This document shows positions 32,002 to 39,952 of a stretch of 64,000 nucleotides of DNA, in pieces. A program made the position numbers and the translations under genes. The stretch is from positions 1,058,531 to 1,122,530 of the forward strand of contig NZ_CP036343.1 in the NCBI RefSeq assembly GCF_007746795.1, written 5' to 3'. Within the stretch, counting starts at the first letter, position 1; each line of letters opens with the position of its first letter. The DNA comes from Gimesia algae. Its GTDB lineage: Bacteria > Planctomycetota > Planctomycetia > Planctomycetales > Planctomycetaceae. The notes under the pieces were generated by a model, which was given only the letters and a program-made list of their open reading frames with translations, made no database searches and was not told the DNA's origin.

Positions 32002-32925
32002 ATGATCATCGCAGCCGGTTTGAGTCCGGCCTGGCAGCAGATCCTGGAAGTGAACTCCCTTGAGATCGGAGAAGTCAACCGGTGCCAGTCAGCTCACTGG
32101 TCAGCCTCCGGAAAAGTGATTAATGTGGCGATCGCTGTCCGGCATCTGGATATTCCCTGCGAAACGATTTTTTCGGCTGGAGGATACACCCGGGATTTGA
32201 TCGAAGCAGACCTGATGCGTCTTCAGGTTCCCTGTCGTATTCTGGATCAACAGAACCCGACACGAATTTGTACGACGGTATTGGATCGTTCGACGGGACA
32301 GACGACCGAACTGGTGGAAAATGCAACCGCGGTTTCAGCAGCAGAAGTGTCTATGTTTGCTACTGAATACTGCCAGCACGCCTCTTCTGCGGATGTCGTT
32401 GTACTAACCGGATCATTACCGGCAGGTGCTTCTGCATCCCTGTATCATGATTTGCTGGCAGAGACAGACTGCCCGGTAATTCTCGATGCACGGGGACCAG
32501 AGCTGGAAGCGGCATTAACTCAATGCCCTTTTCTGGTAAAACCCAACCTGGAAGAACTGGAGCAGACATTGGCTTACTCCCTTTCCAGCACCGATCAGAT
32601 GATTAAAGGGATGCAGGAAATCAATCAAAGAGGGGCGACCTGGGTTGTGACCTCACAAGGGAAAGATGCCTTATGGGCGACCTCGGAACAACAGGTTTAT
32701 CGCTTCACTCCCGCGACAGCGAAAGTTGTGAACCCCATCGGTTGTGGAGACAGTCTGGCAGCAGGCATCGCCTGTGGAATTCACGATGGTCGCAGTGTTC
32801 CAGATGCCATTCGCTGGGGGATGGCAGCGGCAGCCGATAATTTGACCCAACTATTACCCGCACGTTTGTCCAAAACCAGTGTGCAAGCATTTTTCGATCA
32901 GATCGAAATGGAGCAGCTTGTCTGA
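32002..32925 (+). CDS. PfkB-family carbohydrate kinase (1-phosphofructokinase-like)
   Basis: A 307-residue PfkB kinase. Visible are an N-terminal lid and substrate part (SGKVINVAIAVRHL), VLTGSLPAG in the middle, KPNLEELE (common to LacC/FruK-like members), and the catalytic motif NPIGCGDSLAAGIACG near residues 245-260, with the anion hole and catalytic Asp. It most resembles 1-phosphofructokinase or tagatose-6-phosphate kinase. It overlaps the ABC ATPase start by one base (TGATG), so they are co-translated, although a metabolic link between them is not obvious. Confidence 0.9.
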   Translation: MIIAAGLSPAWQQILEVNSLEIGEVNRCQSAHWSASGKVINVAIAVRHLDIPCETIFSAGGYTRDLIEADLMRLQVPCRILDQQNPTRICTTVLDRSTGQTTELVENATAVSAAEVSMFATEYCQHASSADVVVLTGSLPAGASASLYHDLLAETDCPVILDARGPELEAALTQCPFLVKPNLEELEQTLAYSLSSTDQMIKGMQEINQRGATWVVTSQGKDALWATSEQQVYRFTPATAKVVNPIGCGDSLAAGIACGIHDGRSVPDAIRWGMAAAADNLTQLLPARLSKTSVQAFFDQIEMEQLV

Positions 32926-33629
32926 TGGCAGACACACAAACTTCTGCTCAATGCCTGCTGGAAGCACGTCAGATCGGACGACAGATTTCAGACGGTCACT
33001 GGTTGATTCGAAATCTGTCACTGAGTGTTTACCCGGGCGACCGGATTGCCATATCAGGCCCGACGGGATCGGGAAAATCCGTTTTTCTGCGGTCACTGGC
33101 GATGCTGGATGAGATCCAGGAAGGGAGTATCCTGTTTCATGATGAGCCCATCAGAGATAAACAGCTACCCGAATATCGCAGTCGAGTTGTCTATCTTCAA
33201 CAGCGACCGGTTTTAATCGAAGGGACAGTAGAATCGAATCTGCAGTTTGCCTTTCAGTTTCAGGTCAATCAGCACAAAGACCATAATCCGGATTCCGTTC
33301 GGAACTTTCTGGAATCCTTCGGCAGACCAGAGTCATTTCTCAAAAAAAAGTCGTCATCGCTGTCTGGTGGAGAAGGACAAATTGTGGCATTGTTACGTGC
33401 CCTGATTCTGTCTCCCCAGGTTTTACTGCTGGATGAACCAACTTCCGGACTGGATCCGGAAACCACCCAGCAGTTTGAATCGATCATTCTACAATGGATC
33501 AAATCTTCAGAAGTATGCCCGGCGTTTGTCTGGATTACACACGATCGAAGTCAGGCTCAGAGGCTGGCTGATAAAGTCATGATATTTCCTGCAGGCGAGG
33601 TGTCGAACAATGTCAATTCAGAATCCTGA
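32925..33629 (+). CDS. fetA: FetA-like ABC transporter ATPase
   Basis: A 234-residue ABC ATPase. Walker A is GPTGSGKS at 45-52, the Q-loop is in VYLQQRP, the signature is LSGGEGQ near residue 145, Walker B is VLLLDEPTSGLD and the H-loop is WITHD. The GEGQ signature with the VALLRAL helix fits the FetA (YbbL) subgroup, the ATPase partner of FetB, which in E. coli helps to lower labile iron. The partner gene in this window is at 39155, about 5.5 kb away, rather than adjacent. The start overlaps the kinase stop by one base. A promoter and leader hairpin follow this gene before the SpoIIAA-like gene. Confidence 0.8.
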   Translation: MADTQTSAQCLLEARQIGRQISDGHWLIRNLSLSVYPGDRIAISGPTGSGKSVFLRSLAMLDEIQEGSILFHDEPIRDKQLPEYRSRVVYLQQRPVLIEGTVESNLQFAFQFQVNQHKDHNPDSVRNFLESFGRPESFLKKKSSSLSGGEGQIVALLRALILSPQVLLLDEPTSGLDPETTQQFESIILQWIKSSEVCPAFVWITHDRSQAQRLADKVMIFPAGEVSNNVNSES

Positions 33630-35919: not shown

Positions 35920-36663
35920 TTAAAGCGGTTTTTTCACAATCAGTGTATAAAACGGAACTTTGAGAAGAGGCATAAATGGGAGACTTCCCTGCGATTCGTT
36001 GAGAGAAATCAATTCAAAGCGATCCAGCAGATAGGGGAGGTGATCTGAATTCAGAAAGACATTGTCACTCGCAAACCAGACAGGCCAGAAATTTCGTTGA
36101 AACCAGCCATGCGACTTCAAGTTGTCCTGCGGGAATTTCCTGGCGACATAGAAATCAACAATCCCCAGCATTCCTCCTGGTCGTAGGAGATCCCAGGCAT
36201 GGTTCAGTGCCTGAAACCAGTCGGGAATCATGGTGAGTGAGTAGGAAAAGGTCACCAGATCCACGTGAGTTTCAGGAGGCGTAAAGGTGGTCGCATCATG
36301 ACAAACTGCTGTCACATTCGACCAGCCTCGATCTGATATTCGTTGAGAACAGACATCCAGCAGAGGCTGACAGAGATCAACGAGATAAGCACGTTGAAAC
36401 TGATGAATTCGTTGGCCCCATAATTCTGCATTTTCGCCAGTTCCTGTCCCCAGATCGACCCAGACCCCTGCTTCGGGTACAGGCATGCTTTCAAACAATT
36501 CACTGCGACCATGTAATAGTCGTTTACGGAACTGATCGTAACCGGCTGCCTGTCCCTGATAGAACGAATTCAGTCTCTCGGCGTGAGTCTGACCATCAAT
36601 ACGCGAGGCCAACAGTTGCCACACGGTTTTGACATCGTTCAGCCGCGCACTCAAATAGCTCAT
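35920..36663 (-). CDS. btaB: BtaB-like diacylglyceryl-homoserine N-methyltransferase
   Basis: A 247-residue SAM-dependent methyltransferase. The SAM site is WVDLGTGTGEN at residues 68-78, and FSYSLTMIPDW near 155 with GIVDFYVARK later are marks of BtaB. In Rhodobacter sphaeroides BtaB methylates diacylglyceryl-homoserine three times to give the betaine lipid DGTS. GGGAGAG precedes the ATG. It lies 49 bases after the BtaA-like gene and shares its strand, as in the known btaAB operon. It should act at the cytoplasmic side of the membrane on the BtaA product. Confidence 0.9.
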   Translation of the reverse strand: MSYLSARLNDVKTVWQLLASRIDGQTHAERLNSFYQGQAAGYDQFRKRLLHGRSELFESMPVPEAGVWVDLGTGTGENAELWGQRIHQFQRAYLVDLCQPLLDVCSQRISDRGWSNVTAVCHDATTFTPPETHVDLVTFSYSLTMIPDWFQALNHAWDLLRPGGMLGIVDFYVARKFPQDNLKSHGWFQRNFWPVWFASDNVFLNSDHLPYLLDRFELISLNESQGSLPFMPLLKVPFYTLIVKKPL

Positions 36664-36712
36664 AATTAGCTCTCTCCCTGAAAGCCATCCTGTTCATTAC
36701 TGTTTGAGACTG

Positions 36713-37909
36713 TCAGATCAACAAATCTGCAATATAGAAACTGCCATAGGTATTCACCCGGTCCTGCTCATGCAGTTCAGTTGCGAGCTGATTCTGGTAT
36801 TGTAATAGCTCACCGACTTCCCGTTGTTGTCCATGATGCTGGACTTGAATGGGGTCAACAAAGTCCACTTGTATTCCCGCACTCCGCCAGAGGATCCTGC
36901 TCTCTGGTGCCGCTTTGTCGAGAATCGCCTGCCATTCGCTTTGTAATAATTGAGGTTGTGCGCCTGCCATCCAGTCCATGTGATCCAACAGTATAAAACG
37001 GGAGATGGTTCCGGGATGCTGCCGTAGAAAGCCTTCCACCGTATTAGTAGTCACGGTGAGTCGATCTATCAGCCCCGCTTTGAGGCGTGCAAAATTATGC
37101 GGCTTAAGATATTCGGGACAGCACTCATGGTCATAGCTGCCTGTCAGATAGACACGCCAGAAATAGTTGTCCTGCAGCGAGCGACTGGTAAAAACAGTTT
37201 CGATGCGATCGATAACAAACTGAACAATCCCGCCGGCATAACATTGATCGATCTGCGTACGTTGCGGGCGGGGTACTCCCAGCATGGACAAAGTCAGGTC
37301 TCGCCGCATCCACCATTTGATCATTCTGGTCCAGAGCAGTTCATTAATATTACGAGACTGATAAATTGAACTCTGTTCTGAAACGTCGCGAGCCGCCAGT
37401 AGCGAATTGATATCATCACGAATTTTAGCGATGCGGTCGATGTAACAGTTTACAAACCAGGCAAACAACCCGGAGGAACCGCGAAAATAGAAACTGGACC
37501 GTTTTCCCTCACCGGAAAAAAACTTCCCATGTCGGTCCCAGTATTTCTGCGCGGTCAGTGATAAGTCTGCTCGCAATTTTTGAGCGTACAACGTCTGCCA
37601 GTCTTTCGAGAATCCACGACCAAACAGATCAAAAAATGCTTCATAATCCAGGTTACGAATCGCTGCCAGCTTCAATTCCAGAAGTGCATTCTGCTTAGGA
37701 TTCACATCCACGGCATGCACCTGGCGAGGTTTGTCCAACAGATAATCTAACGCATTACAGCCAGCGGAAGTGATTACCAGAACTTCGTCATCGGGCCCCA
37801 GTTCCAGTGCCGCGCGATCGAGTCGAGGATCTTCCCAGCAGGTATTATAAACCAGATTGCCCTGATGCACGAATTGAAAACCTTTACTGCTGATTCGTTC
37901 AGAAATCAT
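36713..37909 (-). CDS. btaA: BtaA-like SAM:diacylglycerol aminocarboxypropyl transferase
   Basis: A 398-residue DUF3419 protein. Family features are [11 protein letters not shown] at residues 21-31, the SAM site [16 protein letters not shown] at about 43-58, and [18 protein letters not shown] next. In R. sphaeroides BtaA transfers the 3-amino-3-carboxypropyl group of SAM to diacylglycerol. GGAG lies about 8 bases before the ATG. It follows a PlcP-type phosphoesterase by 35 bases and precedes BtaB by 49 bases. This order gives the diacylglycerol source, the headgroup transfer and the methylation in sequence. Confidence 0.93.
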
Positions 37910-37944
37910 AAACTTACTCCGGTTAACATATAAAAAAGAACTGA

Positions 37945-38847
37945 TCAGCGGCGGATCAGTTTAAGAGGATGACATTTTTTCCAGAAACGGCTGACAAGCC
38001 CCGGCACCTCAGCTTCAACAAAAGTCTTTGAATTGATTCTCTCCGGACGTGCTTGAGGAACAGACTTCTGGACAGGAGCAATTTCCTGATCGAAAAAAAC
38101 GATTTCCAGTTCGCCGTCACTGTATTCAATCAAAGCGCTGCAGTGTTCCACCCAGTCACCTGTATTACAGTAGTTAATCCCGTCGATATCGAGAATATTG
38201 GGGGCATGAATATGACCGCAGATGATTCCCTCACACCGTTTCAGTCGGGCATGATCGGCCAGCTTCCTCTCATAATCGCTGATAAACCGCATCAGGTGCT
38301 TCACCTGAGATTTCACAGCAGAGGAGAGGGCAAATTTTGTCTGGCCCTGACGATTGAACAGACGGTTGAACAAAGTATTAGAGGTCAGTAACACGTCATA
38401 AGCAAATGAAGCCAGCACCGATAGCCATTGCGCACCCGTTTCAAACTTATCGAACTGATCGCCGTGGATAATCAGAAAGCGCCGTCCATCTGCTGTCAGA
38501 TGGACGAATTCATCAGAGAGTGATACGAAACCAAACCGCTTGCCGAAATCACGTAAAAAGTTATCATGATTTCCAGGAGTATAAAATACTTCAGTCCCTT
38601 TACGACTGAGTTCTTCAACCCGGTCAAAGATCTGATTATAAATTTCAGGCCAGCGCCATTTTTTGCGCAACTTCCAGCCATCAATCAGATCGCCTACCAG
38701 ATAGAGAGATTCAGGCTGGTGGGAATTCAGAAATTTCAGAAATTCATCTGCTCTCGAATGCATACATCCCAGATGCACATCGCTGACAAAAATCGTTCGA
38801 ATCGTACGAGATACTGTTGCAGCGGGCTGGTTCTGGGACACGATCAT
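37945..38847 (-). CDS. plcP: PlcP-like calcineurin-type metallophosphoesterase
   Basis: A 300-residue metallophosphoesterase with the full calcineurin-type motif set: FVSDVHLG (D23, H25), LVGDLIDGW (GD at 52-53), TPGNHDN near 95-99, IHGDQFD, and [18 protein letters not shown] and the WRWPEIYN segment fit the PlcP phospholipase C subgroup rather than LpxH. In Sinorhizobium and in marine bacteria PlcP releases diacylglycerol from phospholipids under phosphate limitation. It is first in a minus-strand unit with BtaA and BtaB, with AAGGAGG five bases before the ATG. LpxH-like UDP-diacylglucosamine hydrolase remains possible but does not explain the neighbours. Confidence 0.85.
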
Positions 38848-39154
38848 ATCATCCTCCTTAATGACATTACTCCGCGATCTCGGCGGTTCGCTTCCTGACT
38901 GTCACAGTTCTGACTGTGTTCTTTTTTGATTTGTTCCTCGTTCATTGTTGCGGCGGATCTTATCAAGCTTTTATTGGCTGATGATGAATGCGAAGTTAAG
39001 GTCTTGAGAATTCACACTTCTCTTAAATTGCTGGTCAATGCAGATTGTGTTAAGGTTTCCGCATCAATTGATGAAGCAGGATCGGTCACCATTTCAGAGA
39101 ATCCCAGACTGAACTAGCCAATCCATCCGAAAGTAAGCTGATCAGGAAGTCGAC
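38848..39154. other. Divergent intergenic region upstream of the lipid cluster
   Basis: About 300 bases between the PlcP-like and FetB-like genes. It carries the inverted repeat at 38895-38918 (separate entry). An open frame from a TTG at 38926 has 63 codons, no ribosome-binding site and no similarity. No consensus promoter was found. Confidence 0.5.
38895..38918. promoter_or_regulatory. Candidate operator upstream of plcP-btaA-btaB
   Basis: CACAGT-TCTG-ACTGTG at 38903-38918 is a perfect inverted repeat. It overlaps two direct CTGACTGT repeats (38895-38902 and 38910-38917), 15 bases apart. It lies 48-71 bases upstream of the plcP start. CTGTCAC at 38899-38905 looks like a half of a Pho box, but the second half is too degraded for a confident call. 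Confidence 0.35.
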
Positions 39155-39952
39155 ATGTATGACTTAACCCCACTGAATATTTTTCTGGCAACACTGCTGG
39201 TGATGATCAATGGGATCATTTCTTTCTGGTTGAGCCTGAATCTGGAAAAGCGTCTGTTCCTGGCTTCGATTCGCACCGTGATTCAACTCCTGCTGATTGG
39301 CATGATTCTGGAATGGATTTTCGAGTTATCGTGGTGGCCCGTTATTCTGTTGCTGATGTTCAGCATGACACTTATTGCCAGCCTGACCGCAGTGCAACGT
39401 TCGCAAAGACGCTTTCCGGGCATCTGGCTTAACAGCACTATCGCTGTCTTTGTCAGCTCCTGGCTGGTGAGTGGATTTGCATTAACAGTCGTAATCCCTC
39501 CGCACAGCTGGTCAAACAATCCGGCTCAGTATCTGATCCCACTCCTGGGAATGATCCTGGGGAACACTTTAAACGGAATCTCGCTGGGCCTGGACCGGCT
39601 GAGTGAAGAGCTCGTGATGCGCAGAGGAGAAGTGGAACTCCGACTCTCTCTGGGAGCCACTCGCAATGAGGCTGCCAGAGAAGCACTGCAGAATGCCGTA
39701 AGATCAGGCATGACTCCCATCATTAATTCGATGATGGTCGTCGGGCTGGTTTCATTGCCCGGTCTGATGACAGGACAGATCCTCGCAGGAGCCAGTCCGT
39801 TGGAATCAGTGAAGTATCAGATCGTGATCATGTTTCTGATCGCATCGGGAACCGCATTAGGAACCGTGATCTCAGTACTGTTGGGGTATCGACGTCTGTT
39901 TAATTCCAGACATCAGTTTCTGTTCGAACGGATCACACGCGTCGAAAAATAA
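39155..39952 (+). CDS. fetB: FetB-like (UPF0014) ABC permease
   Basis: A 265-residue protein with about six to seven hydrophobic helices. Family features are RTVIQLLLIGMILEWIF near the N-terminus, LGMILGNTLNGISLGLDRL in the middle, and the long cytoplasmic coupling segment ELRLSLGATRNEAAREAL followed by GMTPIINSMMVVGLVSLPGLMTGQILAG. It matches the FetB (YbbM) permease, whose ATPase partner is FetA; a FetA-like ATPase is encoded at 32925. AGGAAG precedes the ATG. In E. coli the pair reduces iron toxicity, probably by exporting iron. It converges on the BshC-like gene with 33 bases between. Confidence 0.9.
   Translation: MYDLTPLNIFLATLLVMINGIISFWLSLNLEKRLFLASIRTVIQLLLIGMILEWIFELSWWPVILLLMFSMTLIASLTAVQRSQRRFPGIWLNSTIAVFVSSWLVSGFALTVVIPPHSWSNNPAQYLIPLLGMILGNTLNGISLGLDRLSEELVMRRGEVELRLSLGATRNEAAREALQNAVRSGMTPIINSMMVVGLVSLPGLMTGQILAGASPLESVKYQIVIMFLIASGTALGTVISVLLGYRRLFNSRHQFLFERITRVEK

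Follow-up and report, generated by a model that had tools for sequence, protein, structure and literature searches.

A plcP-btaA-btaB gene cluster with a probable Pho box in Gimesia algae and its genus

We analyzed a 64 kb window of Gimesia algae DNA, taken from a planctomycete genome of 7.93 Mb in one contig (G000, C1:1058531-1122530), in which three minus-strand genes encode a phosphoesterase of the PlcP type, BtaA and BtaB (Table 1). Our results make it very likely that these genes form a PhoB-controlled operon that would replace phospholipid by the betaine lipid diacylglyceryl trimethylhomoserine (DGTS) at low phosphate, the lipid and the transcription being predictions. Direct support exists for the intactness of the genes, their family relationships, their conservation and co-occurrence, a promoter element common to several loci and a covarying hairpin. 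A preliminary description of the window had reported three open reading frames (ORFs) in the order plcP-btaA-btaB, separated by 35 bases (37910-37944) and 49 bases (36664-36712), and the ORF coordinates are as it gave them. Its three enzyme assignments are borne out by Pfam domains and sequence identities, and the complete path from phospholipid to DGTS that it described stands on paper, that is, from the genes alone.

Sequence comparison indicates that the phosphoesterase is of the PlcP type and not an LpxH, with phospholipid hydrolysis itself predicted. The protein matches Pfam Metallophos (E 6.3e-13), and in direct comparisons it is 43.2% identical to a Pseudomonas aeruginosa PlcP over 241 residues, 38.9% identical to the Sinorhizobium meliloti homologue over 285 residues and 23.6% identical to Escherichia coli LpxH over 208 residues. 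A tblastn search of plasmid records gave, as its best 23 relatives, proteins of rhizobia, Pseudomonas, Roseomonas and others that were 39-44% identical with about 80% or more of the query covered; E. coli LpxH was matched at 31% over 125 residues. A DGW motif is common to the window protein and its P. aeruginosa and S. meliloti counterparts. In a 12-row alignment, GNHD is found in all ten PlcP-type rows and GNRD in both LpxH rows. These two LpxH rows, the only ones in a 46-row tree, split off with full support, finer placement being unsure given several long branches; the PlcP identity, initially proposed from motif resemblance, thus held in a tree check against references of both kinds. Both PlcP references are very probably the characterized proteins. 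On its plasmid record, the Pseudomonas plcP precedes a glycosyltransferase gene, the neighbor that PA3218 provides for the PlcP gene PA3219 in a published P. aeruginosa pair (PMC8528852; papers are cited here for the excerpts that bear on each point). Comparing the Pseudomonas row with that of S. meliloti gives 48% identity, where the same paper prints 46% between PA3219 and the PlcP of S. meliloti. We took the P. aeruginosa row as PA3219 by its glycosyltransferase neighbor, its record showing no PA locus tag; a literature search for the S. meliloti locus tag together with plcP gave no match. The window protein is closer to these two rows than to LpxH.

BtaA carries a full-length DUF3419 domain (PF11899, E 3.6e-124, 415 bits, profile positions 8-383 of 385), the family to which known BtaA proteins belong. 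It aligns along its length with rhizobial DUF3419 proteins and shares with them the WEDP and SxGCN motifs; in the annotated records of these rhizobial genes, a methyltransferase gene comes next. A structure model of high confidence (predicted local distance difference test 90.5, predicted template modeling score 0.91) had no Foldseek match at E 0.001 (best E 0.018), although S-adenosylmethionine (SAM)-dependent methyltransferase entries predominate among its best 50 matches, and the protein has no sequence relative in the PDB at E 0.001; the fold therefore lends weak support to SAM binding. From the family and the neighboring genes, we infer that BtaA would transfer a 3-amino-3-carboxypropyl group to diacylglycerol. 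BtaB, a protein with class I SAM methyltransferase domains (best Pfam match Methyltransf_25, E 4.6e-14), is encoded with btaA and resembles the methyltransferase behind btaA of Rhizobium leguminosarum (33% over 173 residues, L044); no BtaB model occurs among the Pfam and NCBIfam matches listed. Both Bta reactions and their control by PhoB in Sinorhizobium have been reviewed (PMC3972451).

The cluster is more than a chance association, since its order is kept in all 14 btaA-holding genomes of the genus and dN/dS is low. Among 17 genomes of the genus, DUF3419 occurs in 14 and plcP in the same 14, at one locus each; the other three hold neither plcP nor btaA, one of them (G013) being just 74% complete. 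Gene order and strand are identical at the 14 loci, and dN/dS lies between 0.04 and 0.08 for each gene (NG86, against two close relatives, using the first 285, 396 and 240 codons of plcP, btaA and btaB). Local defects affect btaB in G011, cut by a contig end, btaB in G004, split over two frames, and the frameshifted end of plcP in G005, which for this reason shows as two pieces; the G004 and G005 cases (L003 and L009) represent either decay or sequencing error. In G012 the three-gene block alone is missing between flanks that are collinear on both sides. A three-protein tree of six genomes places G012 inside the genus with weak support (84/90, 80/85), which favors loss of a cassette over gain. 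In G015 the contig stops at the neighboring gene, so that the status of the block cannot be judged. The genus-wide order, the co-occurrence of plcP with btaA and the absence of the block as a unit in G012 led us to reject chance juxtaposition of the three genes.

Co-occurrence extends to the phylum. In a sample of 294 planctomycete genomes, DUF3419 was matched in 62 at E 0.001 and in 31 at under 1e-90, our chosen cut-off for a strong BtaA, set where the E values jump from 7e-98 to 2e-77; 54 genomes gave a PlcP-type match at 1e-25. PlcP-type proteins are present in 24 of the 31 strong-BtaA genomes and in 30 of the 263 others (Fisher 1.6e-14) or, counted by genus, in 13 of 19 against 21 of 182 (1.4e-7), both tests ignoring shared ancestry.

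Alignment of 14 genomes of the genus revealed conserved blocks upstream of plcP containing CTTMAY half-sites in 11-base phase, an element that is a probable Pho box and to which PhoB is predicted to bind. Similar arrays, of the form CTTCAYn-N4-CTTAAYn-N4-CTTAAYn, were found in the pstS promoter of 16 genomes; in the window genome this array lies behind phoR and before pstS, pstC, pstA, pstB, phoU and phoB (the last at 2210-2923 of locus L097). Here pstS was named by PF12849 and the other pst and pho genes by E. coli queries, the E. coli PstS query giving no match at this locus. Across the whole window, a matrix representing the 16 pstS sites by their 12 distinct cores scored highest at 39048-39076, upstream of plcP. 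We also chose by eye, from the plcP and pstS sites, the pattern CTTCAYN16CTTAAC, which has three places in the 7.93 Mb: one at plcP, one at pstS and one 85 bases upstream of a sodium/phosphate (Na/Pi) cotransporter gene (PF02690, 3.7e-61). The last is an independent result, as it had no part in the choice of the pattern. Across the genus the pattern has 52 sites, with 15 at pstS, 13 at plcP, 10 with an Na/Pi-like core and 14 elsewhere. The plcP gene carries it in 13 of 14 genomes and pstS in 15 of 16, and the cotransporter gene was confirmed at all five Na/Pi-like sites whose locus was examined. Published Pho boxes share an 11-base layout (PMC4415409), and the cyanobacterial Pho box unit is CTTAACCT (PMC1906773); the CTTAAC unit and the 11-base layout of the plcP element agree with these published boxes. 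The element thus combines direct repeats in 11-base phase with a form common to the pst genes of its own genome, at a low matrix score. An E. coli-type Pho box candidate, CTGTCAC, was rejected: the heptamer is kept only in close relatives, whereas the CTTMAY array is kept widely.

Several observations weigh against a phosphate-controlled DGTS operon as we read it. The plcP site scores only 6.7 bits on the pstS matrix, compared with 40.6-49.2 bits for the training sites and 5.4 bits for the runner-up in the window; with spacers masked it drops to fourth place in the window, a second place upstream of plcP coming third, and the best matrix place lies upstream of plcP in 12 of the 14 genus loci, not in all. 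The pattern matches 3 times in its own genome against 5 for a reversed-pattern control, and 52 times in the genus against 66, so that the number of matches does not exceed background and only their positions are informative. Outside the genus, CTTMAY tandems occur within 450 bases upstream of plcP at just 3 of 20 planctomycete loci (0 of 20 for the reversed control). We therefore claim the element for this genus only, and a general planctomycete Pho box was rejected on the same count. On the protein side, BtaA is just 25-32% identical to the rhizobial proteins, a PlcP-type match is missing from 7 of the 31 strong-BtaA genomes, and PlcP occurs in 30 genomes that lack a strong BtaA. The weak matrix score and the rarity of the element beyond the genus would both fit a path that is real with DGTS made constitutively, the element binding another OmpR-type regulator without any response to phosphate starvation. 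Such an arrangement appears rather unlikely to us given that the same element stands at pstS in the phoR-pst-phoU-phoB locus and at the cotransporter gene, and that it persists at plcP throughout nearly all genomes of the genus.

The product might also be a different or incomplete homoserine lipid, either diacylglyceryl homoserine (DGHS) left unmethylated or partly methylated, or a converted form such as diacylglyceryl hydroxymethyltrimethyl-beta-alanine (DGTA). This is compatible with the identity of about 29-33%, over part of its length, between BtaB and the rhizobial methyltransferases, and with the fact that BtaB is matched just by other or general methyltransferase models, those from NCBIfam all under their cut-offs. 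We consider it quite unlikely, considering that btaB follows btaA directly at all 14 loci of the genus, that it is kept elsewhere in the genome in all three family genomes where the two genes do not adjoin, and that its dN/dS is 0.06. DGTS is recognized by a head-group fragment at m/z 236. DGTA fragments identically to DGTS in mass spectrometry (PMC10667739). As for the phosphoesterase, a lipid A enzyme (an LpxH-like UDP-diacylglucosamine diphosphatase) standing beside btaAB by accident would account for the nearest NCBIfam models being LpxH, for the label UDP-2,3-diacylglucosamine diphosphatase on most of the plasmid-record relatives listed and for the name UDP-2,3-diacylglucosamine hydrolase on nine of nine solved relatives. 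However, both LpxH models score far under their cut-offs (66 against 134 bits and, for TIGR01854, 60 against 190 bits), and the motif and the tree separate the protein from LpxH as described above. LpxI (PF06230) is present in 16 of the 17 genus genomes, including all three without plcP, the single genome without a match being 76% complete; lipid A synthesis need not, therefore, depend on the PlcP protein. Together with the joint gain and loss of plcP and btaA in the genus, as in G012, these results make a lipid A role extremely improbable, and the LpxH reading was rejected on the scores, the tree split, GNHD and LpxI.

The preferred reading, a PhoB-controlled switch from phospholipid to DGTS, would proceed as follows. 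Low phosphate would activate PhoR-PhoB, and PhoB, judging from the promoter elements in common, would bind the phased CTTMAY array about 200 bases upstream of plcP. By analogy with characterized PlcP proteins, the phosphoesterase would cut phospholipid head groups to yield diacylglycerol and a phosphoalcohol, whose phosphate would be recycled. BtaA would then transfer the 3-amino-3-carboxypropyl group of SAM to diacylglycerol, and BtaB is proposed to N-methylate the resulting diacylglyceryl homoserine three times to give DGTS, as in the characterized BtaA/BtaB pair. Where plcP and btaA meet, a hairpin may determine in what ratio the plcP and btaAB portions of the transcript are present, or how stable they are.

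This hairpin is made from the last plcP codons and the stop. Over 11 distinct sequences, 97.7% of its cells are paired and four of its eight pairs are changed on both sides, with at most one in slid controls; double-changed cells number 16 against a shuffle mean of 4.8, a count reached by none of 500 shuffles. Against covariation, 22 of the 500 shuffles also reach four double-changed pairs and the pair types number 7, below the 8.7 of the shuffles; the changes track two sets of related sequences, so independent events may be few. A U-rich run follows the hairpin in 7 of the 11 aligned sequences, that of the window included, and a terminator scan of the region gave 4 matches against 3.2 in shuffles, not above background. 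Our guess is partial termination or message protection. A separate inverted repeat between the Pho-box region and plcP (Table 1) is perhaps a leader hairpin or an opposite-strand terminator.

Table 1. Features of the plcP-btaA-btaB locus in window coordinates
Feature	Coordinates	Strand	Basis
Probable Pho box, upstream part: CTTCATC-N4-N7-N4-CTTAACA, half-sites in 11-base phase	39048-39076	minus	14-genome alignment
Second conserved block, GAATTCTCAAGACCTTAACTTCGCATTCATCATCAGC; CTTAACT and ATTCATC start 11 bases apart	38977-39013	minus	alignment of 14 genus loci; putative function
plcP, calcineurin-like phosphoesterase of PlcP type (intracellular phospholipase C)	37945-38847	minus	300-residue ORF
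btaA, DUF3419, predicted diacylglycerol 3-amino-3-carboxypropyl (homoserine) transferase	36713-37909	minus	398-residue ORF
btaB, SAM-dependent methyltransferase, proposed N-trimethylation of the homoserine head group	35920-36663	minus	247-residue ORF
Hairpin over the plcP stop codon, 8-base stem, 7-base loop	37939-37961	minus	covariation, 11 sequences
Inverted repeat CACAG...CTGTG	38903-38918		partly kept in genus alignment
CTGTCAC, rejected E. coli-type Pho box candidate	38899-38905	plus	
FetA-like ATPase gene	32925-33629	plus	
FetB-like (UPF0014) permease gene	39155-39952	plus	

The block is flanked by the FetA-like and FetB-like genes, between which also lie a SpoIIAA-like gene and an AAA_33/APH gene. 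In a genome of another genus (G269), the FetA-like and FetB-like genes are about 470 bases apart and the plcP-btaA-btaB block is located elsewhere.

Linkage of plcP to the bta genes looks old and labile in this phylum, judging from neighbor counts, from the BtaA tree and from btaB genes that do not adjoin btaA. In the phylum sample, plcP and btaA are neighbors in 13 of the 24 co-occurring genomes, six of them from the genus of the window; in one of the 13 (G195), plcP lies behind btaAB on the opposite strand. We also examined 80 named planctomycete btaA loci, the best 80 of at least 576, of which 10 have less than 2.2 kb upstream and a few nearly duplicate one another or genus loci. At 23 of these, plcP precedes btaA on the same strand at no more than 1.2 kb, one of them (L116) having an ORF of the opposite strand in between, and at 20 of the 23 all three genes lie on one strand within 1.4 kb of btaA. 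Linkage to plcP, the state of 33 of the 112 rows in a quick BtaA tree, requires 7 changes, compared with a shuffled mean of 28.9. The btaB gene is present in all five genomes tested for it, the window genome and four others of the family.

The same tree gathers 105 planctomycete-type rows in one starred group apart from the rhizobial rows; three BtaA rows from the phylum (L035, L036, L038) are placed outside this group and closer to the rhizobial ones. Nested among the planctomycete rows are planctomycete-type BtaA proteins, accompanied by BtaB, from L168, L184, L172 and L143, records titled as Acidobacteriota members, Sumerlaeaceae and Hydrogenedentes; these may reflect transfer or, for metagenome assemblies, mis-binned contigs. 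In L186, from another planctomycete, btaA-btaB is directly preceded by a calcineurin-like phosphoesterase gene (1644-2432) whose product shares only 25% identity with PlcP, possibly an independent recruitment for the same step. No btaB match was found in the flank beside btaA at 31 of the best 80 loci, L120, L124, L134 and L139 included; many of these 31 are Schlesneria- or Pirellula-like, and three end within 400 bases. The next gene after btaA in L134 and L139 has about 400 codons, and its product, by eye, we take to resemble ArgJ.

The plcP-btaA-btaB kit is already known in other bacteria, and the new part here is the genus-specific regulatory reading. An arrangement with btaA and btaB downstream of plcP was published as "type 1" for several strains including Phaeobacter MED193, along with other types in which btaBA in many cases lies elsewhere in the genome, and putative Pho boxes were reported in plcP clusters (Sebastian et al., PMC4796936). 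The window cluster belongs to this type 1, its btaA and btaB following plcP directly and on the same strand. The preliminary description was correct, by that account, in holding that PlcP and BtaAB are often encoded at separate loci; its further claim that clustering is unusual was too strong in view of the published arrangement and of the 20 loci with all three genes among the best 80 of at least 576. When plcP was deleted in MED193, DGTS was no longer made at low phosphate, and complementation brought it back (PMC4796936).

Phytoplankton have traditionally been regarded as the makers of betaine lipids (PMC4796936). A 2023 lipidome paper names, to its authors' knowledge, five bacterial groups with reported betaine lipids, planctomycetes being absent from that list; in its field data, Planctomycetota were one of several groups with which betaine lipids correlated (PMC10667739). 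Our literature search, with most subscription journals outside it, found, among the papers listed, no title on DGTS measured in a planctomycete culture and none on a planctomycete Pho box. If these bacteria do make DGTS under phosphate stress, betaine-lipid readings from water and sediment would need revision. In a published tree, planctomycete BtaA sequences lie at the base of a marine protist and algal BTA1 clade (PMC10685587), a link that the cluster now allows to be tested, and our analysis supplies a predicted Pho box for this genus. A wider picture, in which planctomycetes are a large unreported betaine-lipid group, with a PhoB-driven operon gained and lost as a unit and tuned by a hairpin, and with BtaA and BtaB near the source of marine algal and protist BTA1, is a speculative possibility that we regard as rather unlikely to hold in full.

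Compared with known systems, the window cluster has the same three genes in the same order as the type 1 cluster of Phaeobacter MED193, going by its published description, but resides in a different phylum and carries a covarying plcP/btaA hairpin. Its CTTMAY half-sites differ from the CTGTCAT consensus printed for Pseudomonas (PMC8528852). In P. aeruginosa, plcP is followed by a glycosyltransferase gene rather than btaA, and in S. meliloti it is located about 390 kb from btaA, whereas 35 bases separate the two genes in the window. The full-length DUF3419 domain and the methyltransferase gene after btaA recall the BtaA and BtaB of rhizobia and Rhodobacter (PMC3972451), from which the window BtaA is set apart by its low identity to the rhizobial proteins and by the separate grouping of planctomycete-type rows. 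Finally, eukaryotic BTA1 is one fused protein (PMC10685587), while the window encodes the two functions in two genes.

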